Assembly (NCBI RefSeq): GCF_022402485.1
Contig: NZ_JAKRSA010000018.1
Coordinates: 62,001 to 126,000, forward strand
DNA length: 64,000 bases
Source of the DNA: Phenylobacterium sp.
GTDB lineage: Bacteria; Pseudomonadota; Alphaproteobacteria; Caulobacterales; Caulobacteraceae
Direction: 5' to 3'
In this document: in pieces, positions 6,252 through 18,836 of the stretch
How positions within the stretch are numbered: position 1 is the stretch's first letter
Layout of the letters: each line of letters begins with the position of its first letter
Position numbers and translations under genes: made by a program
Notes under the pieces: generated by a model
The model's database searches: none
What the model saw: only the letters and a program-made list of their open reading frames with translations
Told to the model about the DNA's origin: nothing

Positions 6252-6446
6252 AACGCTTAAATCCTGATGCTGACCTGGGCGGCGGGGAGGCGGCCCATGG
6301 AGATGTCACGCACGAGCCTCCCCTATCCGTCGCGATCTGGGCGCAAGCGAGGCGGGCTTTCGCCTGGCTCTGCTGACACGGCGTTGACGCTCAAGGCCCT
6401 TGCGCCACAATCAAGATCCCAAACCCGCAAGGACGGAGGCAGCCTG

Positions 6447-6908
6447 ATGAGCGTGACCGGTGGATGCCAGTGCGGGGCCGTGCGGTTCTGCCTCGAGGGT
6501 GAGCTCGGCGAGGCCTCCATCTGCCATTGCCGCATGTGTCAGAAGGCGACGGGCGGGCTGTTCGGGCCTTACATCGAGGCGCCCTTCGACGCCCTGATCT
6601 GGACGCGGGGGCAGCCCAAACGCTTTCAGAGCTCCAACAAGGTGCGCCGGGGCTTTTGTGGTGACTGTGGGACGCCGCTGACCTTCGAGTTTGGCGAGCG
6701 GCACGTCAGCCTGGCCATCGGCGCCCTCGACCGACCCGCCGCGGTGCGTCTGAAGGAGCAACTCGGCTCGCCGGCGCAACTGCCCTGTTTCGATGACCTG
6801 GCGAGCCTGCCGGTCCACGCAGCGGACGAGCCCCGGGCGGCCGCCCACCTGGCGAGCATCGTCTCCTACCAGCACCCCGACCACGATACGGAGGATTGGA
6901 GGGTTTAG
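6447..6908 (+). CDS. GFA / CENP-V domain zinc protein
   Basis: 153 residues with the full cysteine set of the GFA family: CQCGAVRF, CHCRMCQK and FCGDCGTPL. The fold binds two structural or catalytic zinc ions. Some members condense formaldehyde with glutathione; most have no known substrate. GGAGG lies about nine bases before the chosen ATG. A longer frame to 6267 adds a sequence not seen in the family. It is transcribed divergently from the TonB receptor, with a 195-bp shared upstream region. A second GFA protein lies at 52495-52938. Confidence 0.88.
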   Translation: MSVTGGCQCGAVRFCLEGELGEASICHCRMCQKATGGLFGPYIEAPFDALIWTRGQPKRFQSSNKVRRGFCGDCGTPLTFEFGERHVSLAIGALDRPAAVRLKEQLGSPAQLPCFDDLASLPVHAADEPRAAAHLASIVSYQHPDHDTEDWRV

Positions 6909-7007
6909 GTGTTGGGCTGAATTTTCCGGGTGTCGACGGCGGGCGGAACGGCTTGCCCATGCGCGGCGGCGAGCCTATCTTACCTCCGTCTTACCAAGGG
7001 TCGTTTG

Positions 7008-14070: not shown

Positions 14071-14199
14071 CAGCGCGCAAATCCGCCGCATGGCGCTTTG
14101 CCTGCGCAACGTTCAACGATAATCCTTTCAGATCAGGGCGTCCGCCAGACGACGTAACGTCGCGTTCCGGGCGTGTTGGCCGCTTGTAACGGGCCGCAG

Positions 14200-16962
14200 A
14201 TGAAGATCAAAAACCGGCGCCAGCCGTTGGATTTCCGTAGTCTCACCGACGAGGAGGCCGCCTCCCGCCAGGAGATGCAGGTGCCTGAGGCGGGGCCCGA
14301 TCACGACCTTGACCTGACCGACGCCCCCGTTGTGGCGGCCACAGCCGCCGCTGATCTTGAGACCATGCCCGAGGGGTCGGAGGATTTGTCCAGCGAGACC
14401 GAACAAGGCGGGACGGCCACCAAACGCAGCCGATCGTCGGACCAGGCTCAGGACGCGGCCTATGGCCTGGCTGATCCGGCTCCCATTGGCGATCTGGCGC
14501 GGGCTGCGACCCCGCCGGCCCCGACATCCCGCGCAGCCCTGGCTCCGACGGCAAACCCCTCCACCCCCGAGGGCGACAAGGCCGGGGGATGGCCAATCTA
14601 TGCTGGTGCAGCAGCCCTGTCGGTCCTCTGCGCCCTGGCACCGATCGCCTATGCCTGGGGCTATCGCGGTGAGGTTGTGCCCTTCCAGGACGATGTCTTC
14701 GCCATGGGGGTTTTTGCGCTCTTGGCTGTGGCGCCTGCGGTGCTCGTCTGGGTGGCAGCCTACGCCCTTCGCCAGGGCCAGAAGCTGGCGGCCGAGACCC
14801 GCCGCACGCAGCGGCTGGCTGATGAACTCATCTCCCCGGCCCTGGTGGCCGCTGGCCGCGCAGGGGAGGTGGTGGCCCATGTCCGCGAGGAGATCATCCG
14901 CGCAGGCGAGGCTGCGCACGACGCCCGCGAAACACTGGCGGCCCTGCGCTCGGCCCTGGCGGCTGAGACGGAACAGCTGGTCAACGCCGCTGCGGCTTCG
15001 GCGCGTACGGCCGAGACCCTGACCCGCAGCCTTGCCCATGAGCGGGTCGAGATGACCGCCCTGGCCAGCGTTCTGGACGCCCAGTCCACGGCTGTGGTGG
15101 ACGCCATCTCCAGCCAGGCGCGGATGGTCGCCGAGGCCTCTGACCTGGCCGAAACCCAATTGCGAGAGGCTGAAGCGTCCCTGGCTGCGCGCGCCGCTGA
15201 CCTGGCCGCCGCGGCCGGAGAAACCAGCGATATTGCCCGGACGGTCGGAGAAGACCTGACCCGCCACATTGCCCGGCTGGAAAGCGCCGGGGCCGGCGTC
15301 GCCGACCAGGTGAGCGCCGCCGAAACGGGGCTTTCTGAGCAGCGCGCCGCCCTGGTGGGGATCGCCCATGGCCTGCGGGCTGACCAGGAATCTTTCGCCG
15401 CCGAGGCCGAGACCCATACCGCCAAGTTGGCAGAGTATCTCTCCGAGGCCAGGCTCTCGGCCGTGGAGGTCGGCGACCGGGCGATCAAGGGGGCCCAGAT
15501 GCTCCGGGAGCTGGTGGCCCAGGCCACTGAGCAGTTTGGCGATATGGCTGACGCTGCCCAGGGCGAGCGCGATGCCTTCGTCGAGAGCCTCCGGCAGTCC
15601 TGGGGCCTGCTGGCCGATACCGCCGCAGGGGAGCGGACCCAGCTGCAGGTGGAAACCCAGTCGGCCATCGACGCCCTGACCCAGGCCGCCGAGCAGACCC
15701 GGCTGGCGGCCGCCCGTCACGCCGAGGCGGCCCGTCAGCAGGTGGACCAGCTGTCGGAGGCGGCGTTTGCCGCCGGCCAGAAGGCCGATCAGGTGTTCGA
15801 GGGCCGTCTGGAGGAGGCGCGCACCCTGATCGAACAATCCGCGGGCCTTGTGGAAGAAGCCGGGGCACAGACCGTCCGGAAGCTCGAGGCCAGCGCTGCC
15901 GCCGCCCGCGCGACCCTGCATGAACTTCAGCACTTGCTGGCCGACCTGGACGCCCGGGCGGCTGACCTGCCTGCGGCCGCGCGACGGCAGGCCGATGATG
16001 TGCGCACTGCCGTGGGCGAGAGCCTGGATGACCTGATGGCCCAGGCCCGGCGAACAGCCGACGAAACCCAGGCCATCGACGCGGCCTTCCAGGAACGGGT
16101 CAGCCGCAACTATGAGATGCTCAGCGAAGCGGTCCGGCTCATGGGGTCTGTGGCCACCACCGCCAGCGGTGGTTTTGGGCCAGGCCTGGGCGCGGGCTTT
16201 GGCGCGACGCCGCCGGTGCGCGAGCGCAGACCCTTGGCCCGAGAGGACCGGCCCCGGCCCCTGCCGGCGACCCCGGCTGCGGCACCGCGGGCTGAGCCGA
16301 GGGCCGAGCCTCCCAGGGCCGCACAGGTGCGTCCTCCGCCGGCGGCAGAGGACGAGGAGCCCCTGGAGCTGCGCCCGACGACCCCTTGGCCGGCCCGGGA
16401 CGGGCGTCGTGGCGCGGCGGAAGAGGCGGGCCTTCGCCCCCGCCTGCGGTTGACGCCGACGGCCACCGACGAGGAGTTCTCCAGCCTGTTCGAGACGGCC
16501 GGTGGTCCGCCCCAGGCCACCGAAACCCCCGAGGACGGCGGGGATGGCCTGACCTGGAAGGACCTTCTGGCGGCCATCGATGAGCCGCCGCCGCGCCCTC
16601 TGGATGAGCGTCGAGAGGCGCAGCTTCTGTCCGATATCGTGGACCTGGGCATAGATCCCTCGGCGCTTTTGCCTCGCGGGCGGATTGAGGAGATCGGTGC
16701 GGTGGTGCAGACCGGGGACCTTGAGGGCGCCCGGCAGGTGGTCCGTCGCCTGGCCCCGGCAGCGACCCGGCGTCTGACCCGCCGACTGTTCACCGACGAC
16801 GCCCTAAAGGCCGAGGCTGGGGACTATCTGCGCCGGTATCGGGGCATGCTGGACGAGGCCGTGGCCCGGGATCAGGAGGGCTTCATGGTCGCCACCCTGC
16901 TGGCCTCTGACGCCGGCCGGGTCTTCCTGCTGCTGGACGCCGCTGCCGGCGACATGATGTAG
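14200..16962 (+). CDS. tipN: TipN-like polar landmark coiled-coil protein
   Basis: 920 residues. The N-terminus MKIKNRRQPLDFRSLTDEEA leads through an acidic, disordered stretch to two transmembrane helices at about residues 130-150 and 165-190. A long Ala/Glu/Gln-rich coiled coil follows to about residue 640, then a Pro-rich linker and a conserved helical C-terminal domain ending in GRVFLLLDAAAGDMM. This layout matches TipN of Caulobacter crescentus (about 890 residues), the new-pole marker that directs flagellum placement and interacts with the ParA system. The identification rests on layout and my recollection of the N-terminus. A TTG at 14173 is an alternative start. Its last 27 bases are part of an exact repeat bounding the next TA pair. 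Confidence 0.75.
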   Translation: MKIKNRRQPLDFRSLTDEEAASRQEMQVPEAGPDHDLDLTDAPVVAATAAADLETMPEGSEDLSSETEQGGTATKRSRSSDQAQDAAYGLADPAPIGDLARAATPPAPTSRAALAPTANPSTPEGDKAGGWPIYAGAAALSVLCALAPIAYAWGYRGEVVPFQDDVFAMGVFALLAVAPAVLVWVAAYALRQGQKLAAETRRTQRLADELISPALVAAGRAGEVVAHVREEIIRAGEAAHDARETLAALRSALAAETEQLVNAAAASARTAETLTRSLAHERVEMTALASVLDAQSTAVVDAISSQARMVAEASDLAETQLREAEASLAARAADLAAAAGETSDIARTVGEDLTRHIARLESAGAGVADQVSAAETGLSEQRAALVGIAHGLRADQESFAAEAETHTAKLAEYLSEARLSAVEVGDRAIKGAQMLRELVAQATEQFGDMADAAQGERDAFVESLRQSWGLLADTAAGERTQLQVETQSAIDALTQAAEQTRLAAARHAEAARQQVDQLSEAAFAAGQKADQVFEGRLEEARTLIEQSAGLVEEAGAQTVRKLEASAAAARATLHELQHLLADLDARAADLPAAARRQADDVRTAVGESLDDLMAQARRTADETQAIDAAFQERVSRNYEMLSEAVRLMGSVATTASGGFGPGLGAGFGATPPVRERRPLAREDRPRPLPATPAAAPRAEPRAEPPRAAQVRPPPAAEDEEPLELRPTTPWPARDGRRGAAEEAGLRPRLRLTPTATDEEFSSLFETAGGPPQATETPEDGGDGLTWKDLLAAIDEPPPRPLDERREAQLLSDIVDLGIDPSALLPRGRIEEIGAVVQTGDLEGARQVVRRLAPAATRRLTRRLFTDDALKAEAGDYLRRYRGMLDEAVARDQEGFMVATLLASDAGRVFLLLDAAAGDMM

Positions 16963-16963
16963 G
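16935..16963 (+). repeat. 29-bp direct repeat, copy 1 (3' end of tipN)
   Basis: This segment begins GGACGCCGCTGCC and ends GACATGATGTAGG. It covers the last nine tipN codons with the stop, plus two bases 5' and one base 3'. It is identical to 17633-17661. The two copies bracket the MazE/MazF genes. Confidence 0.92.
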
Positions 16964-17003
16964 GACAGGGCGGGGGCGCGCCTTCGCCACCCCCCGTGAT
17001 CGG

Positions 17004-17339
17004 TCATTGGCCGATCAATGCGCCGATCTTGGCTTGGACATCAGCCAGAACACCCGGCGAGGCCTTTGCCTTGTGGGTGGCCTTTCGCGCCCGCCAGTCG
17101 AGGCTTTTGATCTGGTCAGCGAGGACCGCGCTCGGCGGTGACTCGCTGACCACCACCTCGAAGGGATAGCCCTTGATCCGTGAGGTGAGGGGGCAGCAGA
17201 TCATCATGCCCCTGGCCTGATTGTAGCGGGCCGGGGACAGCACGAGCGCCGGACGATGACCGGCCTGCTCATGTCCAGCCTGCGGGTCGAATTGGAGCCA
17301 GACTATATCCCCGCGATCGGGAACATAGGGGTTCACCAC
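17004..17339 (-). CDS. mazF: MazF/PemK-family endoribonuclease toxin
   Basis: 111 residues. The N-terminus PDRGDIVWLQFDPQAGHEQAG is the classical MazF/PemK start, with GHRPALVLSPARYN next, then CCPLTSRIKGYPFEVVV and LADQIKSLDWRARKA. The conserved Arg in GHRPALV and Thr/Ser in PLTS are the expected RNA-cleavage residues. It cuts mRNA at short motifs. The gene overlaps the upstream antitoxin by 7 bp. It lies within the 698-bp unit bounded by the 29-bp repeats, downstream of tipN and pointing against it. Confidence 0.93.
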   Translation of the reverse strand: MVNPYVPDRGDIVWLQFDPQAGHEQAGHRPALVLSPARYNQARGMMICCPLTSRIKGYPFEVVVSESPPSAVLADQIKSLDWRARKATHKAKASPGVLADVQAKIGALIGQ

Positions 17340-17575
17340 GCCTCATCCCCAACGGGCCCGCCGAAGTCGACGTCCTCGGGAAAAGTGTCAGGGGTCATCT
17401 TCCCCAACAGATCGTCCAAGTCATAGTTGGGCGCGGGCACCGGCTCGATGATCACCCGGCCACCTTCCTCACGCACATCGACGGCCTGATCGATCCGCAG
17501 GGACGCGGCCGCCATGACCGACGCCGGTATGCGAACCGAGGCGCTATTGCCCCACTTCTTGACCTGAACACGCAT
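17333..17575 (-). CDS. mazE: MazE/PemI-family antitoxin
   Basis: 80 residues. The AbrB-like N-terminal domain reads RVQVKKWGNSASVRIPASVM, as in MazE. The acidic C-terminal tail (NYDLDDLLGKMTPDTFPEDVDFGG) is the toxin-binding part. I chose the ATG at 17575 with GAAAGG upstream; the longer frame to 17653 runs into the tipN-derived repeat and is not coding. It precedes mazF in the operon and should autoregulate it. Confidence 0.9.
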   Translation of the reverse strand: MRVQVKKWGNSASVRIPASVMAAASLRIDQAVDVREEGGRVIIEPVPAPNYDLDDLLGKMTPDTFPEDVDFGGPVGDEAW

Positions 17576-17587
17576 GGCGCGCCTTTC

Positions 17588-17606
17588 GTATCTACATTCA
17601 CGATAC
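17588..17606 (-). promoter_or_regulatory. Candidate MazE operator
   Basis: An inverted repeat GTATC-N9-GATAC lies 13 bases upstream of the mazE start, in an AT-richer stretch that should hold the promoter. Position and symmetry suit antitoxin autorepression. Confidence 0.45.
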
Positions 17607-17632
17607 ATAAGCGGGTCCCTTCGCCCTGTAAA

Positions 17633-17661
17633 GGACGCCGCTGCCGGCGACATGATGTAGG
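17633..17661 (+). repeat. 29-bp direct repeat, copy 2 (duplicated tipN end)
   Basis: Exact second copy of 16935-16963, including the tipN stop codon, placed just beyond the mazEF promoter and 12 bases before the TetR stop. Loss of one copy with the sequence between would restore tipN next to the TetR gene. Confidence 0.92.
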
Positions 17662-17673
17662 CGCCGGCGCGGT

Positions 17674-18282
17674 TCAGGGGCTTACCTGAGCCGCGGCTCT
17701 GCTGCGAACCTGCGCCAGATAGGCCCGGGACAGGCTGACCAGCTCGTCTTCGAAGGCCCTGTCGTGGAGGAAGTCGACCCCTTCGAGGACCGCAGAGCGC
17801 AGGGCGCCGTGCATGGCACGGGTCAGTACGAAGGCGCTGATCGGCTCTAGGGTCCCCTGGGTCTGGTTCAGGGTCTGGGTGACGGCGTCAAACCGGCTGG
17901 CCAGGGCCTCAGCGGGGGTCGTCTCGAACCAGATCCCCATGGCGATCCGACGGGCGCGGGCGCGGCCCTGGAAGGCACCGACAAAGGCCCGGACCAGGGC
18001 GCGGTCGGGCGCCAGGCCCGCGCCGCCTTCTCGAAGCAGCCGCTGCATTTCCGCCCCATGCAGGTCGCTTTCGCGCTCGGCCAGGGCGTGCATCAGGACC
18101 CGCTTATTGGGGAAGTAGCGATAGAGCGTGCCGATACTGATCCCAGCCCGTTCCGCCACGGCATTGGTCGTGAAGCCGTCCAGACCTGAGCGCTCCAGGA
18201 GCTGAGCGGCGGCTTCCAGAATGATCTCGACGGTCTCCGCCGCTCGCTTCTGGCGGGGAATTTTTCGCTCGCCGTCAGACAC
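17674..18282 (-). CDS. TetR/AcrR family transcriptional regulator
   Basis: 202 residues from a GTG start with GCGAGG upstream. The N-terminal helix-turn-helix is typical: IILEAAAQLLERSGLDGFTT, then VAERAGISIGTLYRYFPNK. The C-terminal ligand domain is not diagnostic. It is divergent from the hotdog thioesterase gene (103-bp gap), which is the likeliest target together with itself. I saw no clear palindrome in the gap. Confidence 0.88.
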   Translation of the reverse strand: MSDGERKIPRQKRAAETVEIILEAAAQLLERSGLDGFTTNAVAERAGISIGTLYRYFPNKRVLMHALAERESDLHGAEMQRLLREGGAGLAPDRALVRAFVGAFQGRARARRIAMGIWFETTPAEALASRFDAVTQTLNQTQGTLEPISAFVLTRAMHGALRSAVLEGVDFLHDRAFEDELVSLSRAYLAQVRSRAAAQVSP

Positions 18283-18385
18283 TTAGACCTCGCTCATCTG
18301 GGATCGACCGAAAGCTGGGAAGGTGAGTAGGGGGTAAGCCCGCCCCTGGTTAGCCTTGAGGCCAGCAAGGTTGAAAGGAATTCAG

Positions 18386-18826
18386 ATGACTTGGGCCACG
18401 GAGCGACTGGACGCGATCGGCGCGGGGACGGGGGCGCTGCCGGCCATCGTCGAACAATTGCACCTGGGGCGGCTGGACAGTTGGGGGGACGGCTGGGTGC
18501 GTAAAACCTGGACCCCCCATCCGAGTCTTGCCACGGCCGATGGCTCCCTGTTCGGTGGCTATATCGCGGCCCTGGCCGATCAGGTGCTGGCCTTCGCCAC
18601 CATGACGGTGATCCCCGATGATCGGCTCTATCGGACCACGCAGCTGCAGGTGAGTTTCCTGCGGGTTGGCCGAAATGCGCCCCTGGAGATCGAGGCCAGG
18701 GTCATTGCGGCGACCCGGCAGATGATTGCCGTCCGGGCCAGCTTCACTCAGGCTGGTGGACGACTGATCGCTGAGGCCAGCGCACAGCAGATCGTCCTGC
18801 CCTTGCCGTCGGTGTCAGAAACCTGA
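18386..18826 (+). CDS. PaaI-type hotdog thioesterase
   Basis: 146 residues of single hotdog fold. The segment LATADGSLFGGYIAALADQVLAFA matches the active-site helix region of PaaI enzymes. TTQLQVSFLRVG and IEARVIAATRQM follow as beta-strands. Such enzymes hydrolyse acyl-CoA thioesters in the cytoplasm. GAAAGGAA is a strong ribosome site for the ATG at 18386. It is adjacent to and divergent from a TetR regulator that may control it. The substrate is unknown. Confidence 0.82.
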   Translation: MTWATERLDAIGAGTGALPAIVEQLHLGRLDSWGDGWVRKTWTPHPSLATADGSLFGGYIAALADQVLAFATMTVIPDDRLYRTTQLQVSFLRVGRNAPLEIEARVIAATRQMIAVRASFTQAGGRLIAEASAQQIVLPLPSVSET

Positions 18827-18836
18827 AGGCCGTTCT

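Follow-up and report, generated by a model that had tools for sequence, protein, structure and literature searches.

The 64,000-nucleotide stretch of Phenylobacterium sp. analysed here (contig NZ_JAKRSA010000018.1, positions 62,001 to 126,000; called the window below, with positions counted from its first letter) carries a mazEF toxin-antitoxin (TA) pair enclosed by two identical copies of the end of a neighbouring gene. This target gene is a plus-strand open reading frame (ORF) for 929 aa at 14173..16962, which we take to be tipN, the label given to it in an earlier reading of the sequence (the original prediction); the protein found no match in Pfam or NCBIfam that could confirm the name. 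A related C-terminus with a complete end was read in 24 same-genus genomes, including the window's. The first repeat copy, R1 (16935..16963, plus strand), is the 3' end of tipN with its TAG stop, and the second, R2 (17633..17661, plus strand), lies beyond a 669-bp unit (16964..17632) that is missing in five same-genus genomes where tipN stands beside a TetR gene. Behind R2 follows the TetR-family regulator gene itself (17674..18282, minus strand; Pfam TetR_N, E = 2.5e-16), which adjoins tipN where the site is empty.

The two copies agree at 29 of 29 bases, in direct orientation and with a spacing of 698. R1 consists of the final 28 bases of the ORF, including the TAG stop, plus one base beyond it; the original prediction was right about an exact 29-bp duplication of the tipN end, while its breakdown of the repeat (27 gene bases, two ahead of them, and one behind) errs by one. 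A search of the 3.08-Mb genome with the 29-mer, allowing up to three mismatches, disclosed no third place besides the two repeat sites, and the repeat scores 29, where a null built from direct repeats shared by 300-bp flanks of different loci has its 99.9th percentile at 14. A chance repeat is ruled out by this genome-wide uniqueness together with a score far above the null.

Between the copies, both genes lie on the minus strand. The toxin gene mazF (17004..17339, GTG start, 111 aa) matches Pfam PF02452 (PemK_toxin, E = 1.8e-27) and, above the cut-off, NCBIfam NF007386 (endoribonuclease MazF); the antitoxin gene mazE (17333..17575, 80 aa) overlaps the mazF start and matches Pfam PF04014 (MazE_antitoxin, E = 1.5e-9) above the cut-off, with the NCBIfam MazE model falling below its own. 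As judged from these matches, a PemK/MazF domain preceded by a MazE/AbrB-type antitoxin in one predicted operon of overlapping genes is consistent with a type II MazEF system. Nothing about either protein is unusual; it is their location and the repeat that make up the finding. Upstream of mazE, a promoter-like TTTACA-17-TATGTA directed toward the gene (17604..17632, minus strand) is accompanied by a CCTTTAC stretch preserved in two same-genus genomes, G001 and G021, and a GTATC-N9-GATAC inverted repeat (17588..17606), similar to motifs ahead of several other mazE genes, is a likely operator. The -35 box of the promoter-like motif abuts R2, so the upstream edge of the putative promoter would coincide with the insertion boundary. 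Because this motif ends exactly at R2, the insert is predicted to be one complete mazEF transcription unit and little else. The ORFs of the 669-bp unit include no integrase-like frame, as had been predicted. An 8-bp inverted repeat, ACAGGGCG/CGCCCTGT, occurs at the ends of the unit (16965-16972 and 17622-17629); one arm overlaps the -35 box, and the repeat is partly kept in G001.

Two same-genus searches, covering 100 and 101 genomes, revealed two carriers of mazEF at tipN among their matches, the window's own genome (G000) and G001. In five relatives (G005, G044, G065, G047, and G038) the convergent TetR gene comes immediately after the tipN stop, and each of these genomes has a single copy of the tipN end in the sequence examined. 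Because these five genomes display the empty site, mazEF at tipN is an insertion. The alignment with close relatives suggested in the original prediction has thus produced genomes with a single end copy and no mazEF, in agreement with its claims that duplication of the 3' end left the target gene intact upon insertion and that tipN would lie right next to the TetR gene if the unit were taken out.

The second carrier, G001, has a left junction identical to that of the window, and its right junction reads ...GTAAAGGACGCGG before departing from the repeat, which leaves about 6-8 bp of R2 and no TetR match. This remnant agrees with the tipN end of several close relatives (GACGCGG) and not with the window's version, an observation that is supporting and, because six to eight bases are few, not conclusive. 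At fourfold-degenerate sites, the mazEF genes of G000 and G001 differ at 29 of 91 positions (0.32; 12/39 plus 17/52), and eight genes of the surrounding region differ at 0.372 over 1914 sites. Since mazEF has diverged about as much as its neighbours, the insertion is probably about as old as the split between the two genomes, unless the genes were exchanged near that time.

The identity of R1 and R2 must be read against this age. The tipN ends of nine aligned relatives carry GCG GCG GCC or GCC GCC GCC with a TGA stop, compared with GCC GCT GCC and TAG in the window, and both R1 and R2 carry the window's own synonymous changes. Because a non-coding R2 should have drifted over so long a time, the sequences indicate that the two copies were made alike after the insertion, by conversion or by loss and re-acquisition; the data fit both routes equally.

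The original prediction saw in the locus the pattern of site-specific integration, possibly of a unit moved in trans. In the form considered here, the 29 bp would serve as attachment core for a tyrosine or serine recombinase that is encoded elsewhere and acts on the 3' end of tipN. Such an event would spare the gene at its stop codon, as is seen here, and would be in line with the shared junctions of G000 and G001 and with the final 15 bases before the tipN stop, which are invariant in ten aligned genomes including the window's. It is also compatible with the differences among relatives in the interval behind tipN. This interval, up to a ybjQ-like gene (window 16963-18836), has no TetR or thioesterase match in G001, G068, G018, and G072; the last two have about 1 kb of other DNA in this position. 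The lack of an integrase-like frame in the unit argues against integration of this kind, as does the occurrence of the 29-mer only twice in the genome. For the tipN end, 47 of 101 genomes matched and a subset of their loci was examined (G096 is cut by a contig end); a second copy at the locus was present in one of 24 genomes with a complete tipN end, the window's, and in none of the 23 others. A degenerate 25-mer of the tipN end had no match in viral contigs. Hence the check for the same cassette, or other cargo, beside further tipN-end copies gave none in the genome, the 23 genus genomes, or the viral contigs. The shared junctions, moreover, are explained by one old event, since the cassettes of G000 and G001 have diverged like the neighbouring genes.

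Related mazEF pairs lie at other genes in six further genomes of the genus (G021, G026, G051, G050, G024, and G013). No tipN-end sequence appeared in the 160 bp read on either side of them, and their flanking repeats reach gapped scores of 17-24, where the 95th percentile of the null is 24. The G021 pair stands beside tRNA-Arg, and the flank examined contains no repeat of the tRNA end; the pair occupies the interval between a gene we take to be metC-like and the tRNA (L056:8017-8765), whose length varies across the genus. R2 as a conserved regulatory site was rejected, for the region upstream of mazE in G021 shares CCTTTAC alone and the tipN sequence stops there. The GG that opens R2 is also found upstream of mazE in G021, where mazEF sits elsewhere, and the duplicated target may for that reason be 27-28 bp instead of 29.

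Another possibility raised by the content of the unit is that mazEF is what remains of a larger mobile element, such as an integron cassette, a transposon, or an island. In a distant blastn search, 55 of 72,556 plasmid records did contain relatives of the window's mazEF, and the 8-bp inverted repeat could be taken as a vestige of element ends, though one of its arms overlaps the -35 box. R1 and R2, however, bracket mazEF and its promoter alone, G001 carries the same minimal unit, and the copies at other mazEF loci, described below, likewise lie close behind mazF. We regard a stripped element as very improbable. The features of a DNA transposon or of a miniature inverted-repeat transposable element were not found either: there is only the 8-bp inverted repeat, with one arm in the promoter, and the lengths of the flanking copies vary.

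Flanking repeats were then surveyed at mazEF loci beyond tipN. The discovery loci comprised the best 80 of 564 confirmed MazF relatives in named genomes together with six loci from the same genus; for every pair, one flank was compared with the other. In ungapped comparison of 300-bp flanks, a score of at least 13 was reached in 8 of 85 loci against 43 of 2037 random segments, and a score of at least 15 in 7 of 85 against 9 of 2037, with four of these nine control matches coming from one repetitive locus. With a gapped local score of at least 34 in 350-bp flanks, 6 of 84 mazEF loci were recovered, including the window, compared with 9 of 1621 random 650-bp segments (in 5 loci) and 4 of 3000 cross-locus pairs. 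Leaving out the window gives 5 of 83 loci against 9 of 1621 segments (Fisher p = 0.0003), and leaving out the probable dispersed repeat at L086 as well gives 4 of 82 (p = 0.003). The threshold of 34 had been chosen on the discovery data and was fixed before new loci were drawn; two of 30 new, non-duplicate loci reached it (p = 0.016 against the random-segment control). The excess of tight flanking repeats thus concerns a minority of mazEF pairs.

The flanking copies range from 25 bp to more than 100 bp, are unrelated in sequence when compared by eye, and mostly derive from the 3' ends of neighbouring genes, such as those for GatB, phosphomannomutase, and Lnt. Repeats lie 7-45 bp past the mazF stop in L149, L146, L229, L111, L091, L213, and L097. 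The copy at L213, located 24 bp behind mazF, matches the gatB 3' end over 43 bp at 95% and can still be translated as the end of GatB, closed by an in-frame stop of its own. At L229 (L229:91-1837) the 3' end of a phosphomannomutase gene, about 130 bp, is present in three copies that retain much of the protein sequence; a brnTA-like pair lies between copies 1 and 2 (BrnT above the Pfam cut-off, BrnA at 20.8 bits and below its cut-off of 26.1) and mazEF between copies 2 and 3. The lnt 3' end at L134 is decayed, clear over about 120 bp and, when scored leniently, traceable for up to 200 bp. At L146 the copied stretch is a 5' end, the first ~48 bp of a small integrase-like gene. In L149 and L091 the copies measure 25-26 bp, stem from a region close to the upstream gene's 3' end, and lie 7 bp and 20 bp behind mazF, respectively.

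Lacking a common core, varying in length, and including one 5' end, these repeats do not support the site-specific integration proposed originally, and we consider it improbable for tipN. The part of the original prediction that proposed a minimal mobile TA unit fares differently, since it survives in a reading discussed below in which L229 is the best witness; site-specific integration is the part that is unsupported, although a recombinase may have acted in trans.

Several candidates were set apart from these loci. The long repeat at L086 (332 bp at 95%) was rejected as a target copy because it is probably dispersed, and it still stands within the 6 of 84. L094 and L102 were left out, their copies belonging to repeated neighbouring genes: at L094:5580-5672 and 6819-6911, and at L102:5097-5303 and 6363-6569, small genes of one kind are repeated and parts of them are copied across mazEF. 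L210 and L212 were set aside for their homologous neighbouring genes. L145 and L222 score 29 and 33, below the threshold of 34. A 75-bp copy lies far behind mazF at L109, and at L140 (L140:5498-5579 and 6673-6754) an 82-bp copy (91%) of the 3' end of a methyltransferase-like gene lies 348 bp behind mazF, outside the tight rule and uncounted. At L149, a stretch of about 130 bp between mazE and mazF (L149:2188-2317) recurs at 99-100% elsewhere in that genome, has less similar counterparts in relatives, and is probably a small dispersed repeat inside the operon. The L149 locus is rearranged, and no clean empty site was found among the relatives examined. For L229, 25 of 150 genomes matched, and for L213, 48 of 96 (own genomes included); none of the relatives' loci examined shows two gene-end copies, with synteny not followed, and 17 phosphomannomutase and 8 gatB ends were read.

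The reading we favour, with modest confidence, is that a self-contained mazEF unit inserted at the tipN/TetR junction by a process that is not site-specific, with no transposase or integrase in the unit and with a long target duplication of about 27-29 bp. Insertion with a long target duplication fits best because the targets are unrelated, the copies vary in length and comprise 3' ends and one 5' end, and no mobility gene is present. From the insertion, the empty sites, the divergence, and the flanking copies at a minority of loci, which are all observed, we infer a possible course of events. The two ends of a mazEF fragment would have joined the chromosome, or two sister copies of it, at sites separated by 29 bp, likely by end-joining or template switching. 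tipN would have stayed whole because the duplicated stretch spans its stop codon. This would have happened probably before the split from G001, which would then have deleted most of R2 and the TetR gene; in the window's lineage, R1 and R2 would have been matched again by conversion or by loss and re-acquisition. Once in place, the TA pair would tend to retain itself, as deletants arising by recombination between R1 and R2 would lose the antitoxin.

A number of observations weigh against this reading. A tight flanking repeat is absent from 78 of 84 discovery loci and 28 of 30 new loci, including the six same-genus loci and G001. The excess shrinks as the threshold is lowered: at 30 or more, 7 of 84 loci against 30 of 1621 segments (15 of 3000 cross-locus pairs); at 28 or more, 10 of 84 against 66 of 1621; and at 26 or more, 12 of 84 against 133 of 1621 (63 of 3000 cross-locus pairs). 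Flanks of 1500 bp scored at 44 or more separate less well (11 of 120 loci against 13 of 422 control segments), and the random-segment control was unmatched for operons or intergenic position. At L111, a 13-bp exact repeat beside the promoter has p = 0.006 under the ungapped null; with a gapped score of 26, under the threshold, it is suggestive only.

L097, at a score of 33, also falls under the threshold. There, mazEF immediately follows the stop codon of an HlyD-like gene. Between the insert and the next gene lie about 30 bp that resemble the end of the HlyD-like gene, a copy that looks decayed. In the outgroup G421 both genes overlap with nothing between them, which makes L097 the only one of the other flanked mazEF loci for which an empty site was shown. 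The same junction (L097:4446-5250) holds a different 166-bp insert in the relative G398 and on a second contig from the same genome (L187 and L191:2451-2616), so this gene junction was apparently hit more than once.

The history at tipN raises its own objections. One old event leaves the identity of R1 and R2 unexplained and needs the extra step of conversion or re-acquisition. G000 and G001 are paired in the DNA tree with a support of 63/65, and the protein tree does not pair them; because the trees leave their sisterhood unsettled, losses in other lineages may be needed.

The last of these counterpoints concerns the codon positions at which the copies differ. At L229, third positions account for 13 of 21 differences between copies 1 and 2 (p = 0.007), 10 of 19 between copies 1 and 3 (p = 0.06), and 12 of 24 between copies 2 and 3 (p = 0.07), and at L140 for 5 of 7 (p = 0.045), in tests that are few, small, and partly not independent. 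Judged by these patterns, L229 and L140 fit better with gene ends that came from other lineages than with copies decaying in place. L213 (0, 4, and 4 differences over the codon positions, p = 0.26) and L146 (1, 1, and 2) have no clear third-position excess.

Such patterns would suit an arrangement in which the mazEF unit carries a host gene 3' end and enters by homologous recombination there, as a circle or a transformed fragment, so that the old end is pushed to the far side. Entry of this kind would require no site-specific enzyme. If the unit were lost and came back repeatedly, R1 and R2 would stay identical within a lineage, as they are in the window despite the old insertion. Ends derived from a donor and then displaced suit L229, L140, and L213 because the copies there look as though they had formerly functioned in other lineages: L229 has three stacked ends with a BrnT/BrnA-like pair and mazEF, a protein sequence much of which is preserved, and a lean toward third positions, and the L213 copy still ends in frame like GatB. 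This account is nevertheless weakened by L213 and L146, where third positions are not clearly in excess, by the copies of L134 and L097, which look decayed and not coding, and by the 5' end at L146. Neither a circle nor a donor has been seen, and 29 bp is short for RecA-type recombination. We hold entry by way of a carried gene end to be unlikely, though it is the main rival. The broader notion that TA pairs such as mazEF and brnTA belong to a class of mobile units that move without an enzyme, have host gene 3' ends as boundaries, can stack, and keep their copies matched to the population, is tentative to the same degree.

The insertion with target duplication that we favour has possible counterparts in restriction-modification (R-M) genes, whose insertion with long target duplication was reportedly described by Nobusato et al. 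in 2000. Some R-M systems insert with long, variable target duplications on the order of 100 bp, and others with short duplications and imperfect inverted repeats, in a passage that names R-M and not TA systems (PMC3874152); long and variable target duplications by R-M systems are likewise mentioned in a second paper (PMC3031569), and a third draws a parallel between R-M and TA systems in their addiction and apparent mobility (PMC2654758). Compared with the order of 100 bp given in PMC3874152, the duplication is 29 bp at tipN, about 130 bp at L229, and at least 120 bp at L134. The resemblance lies in a self-contained addictive pair without a mobility gene, a variable duplication, empty sites, and an intact neighbouring gene. 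In contrast, the cargo here is a TA pair, the duplication is mostly a gene 3' end, and the copies at tipN are identical despite the old insertion. The imperfect inverted repeats that accompany short duplications in the account of the second R-M type are not clearly present in the mazEF unit.

Integrative elements with attachment sites in the 3' ends of tRNA and protein genes offer another comparison. Shared with them are a target kept whole by its repeated 3' end and the stacked units at L229, whereas the mazEF unit has no recombinase, the loci have no common core, the target genes are unrelated, and one copy is a 5' end. The minimal mobile element of Neisseria consists of alternative gene cassettes between two conserved genes, and the interval from tipN to the ybjQ-like gene similarly differs in content among relatives; unlike the Neisseria case, direct repeats bracket the cassette at tipN. 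Among the titles and abstract openings listed in literature searches on target duplication or flanking repeats with TA pairs and on minimal mobile elements, none described a TA insertion that duplicates a host gene end, an absence that is not proof.

In unrelated bacteria, too, a minority of related pairs are flanked by gene-end copies, which suggests that TA pairs can settle without a mobility enzyme of their own. A datable insertion, empty sites, a minimal unit shared by two species, and the excess of flanking gene-end copies at a minority of related pairs in several bacterial groups together provide a testable genomic signature. If it proves general, the route of target duplication known from R-M systems would extend to TA pairs, and a gene 3' end repeated across a two-gene unit would serve as a search rule for recent arrivals. 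If the class of units bounded by host gene ends is real, TA addiction would replace the transposase as the means of persistence.

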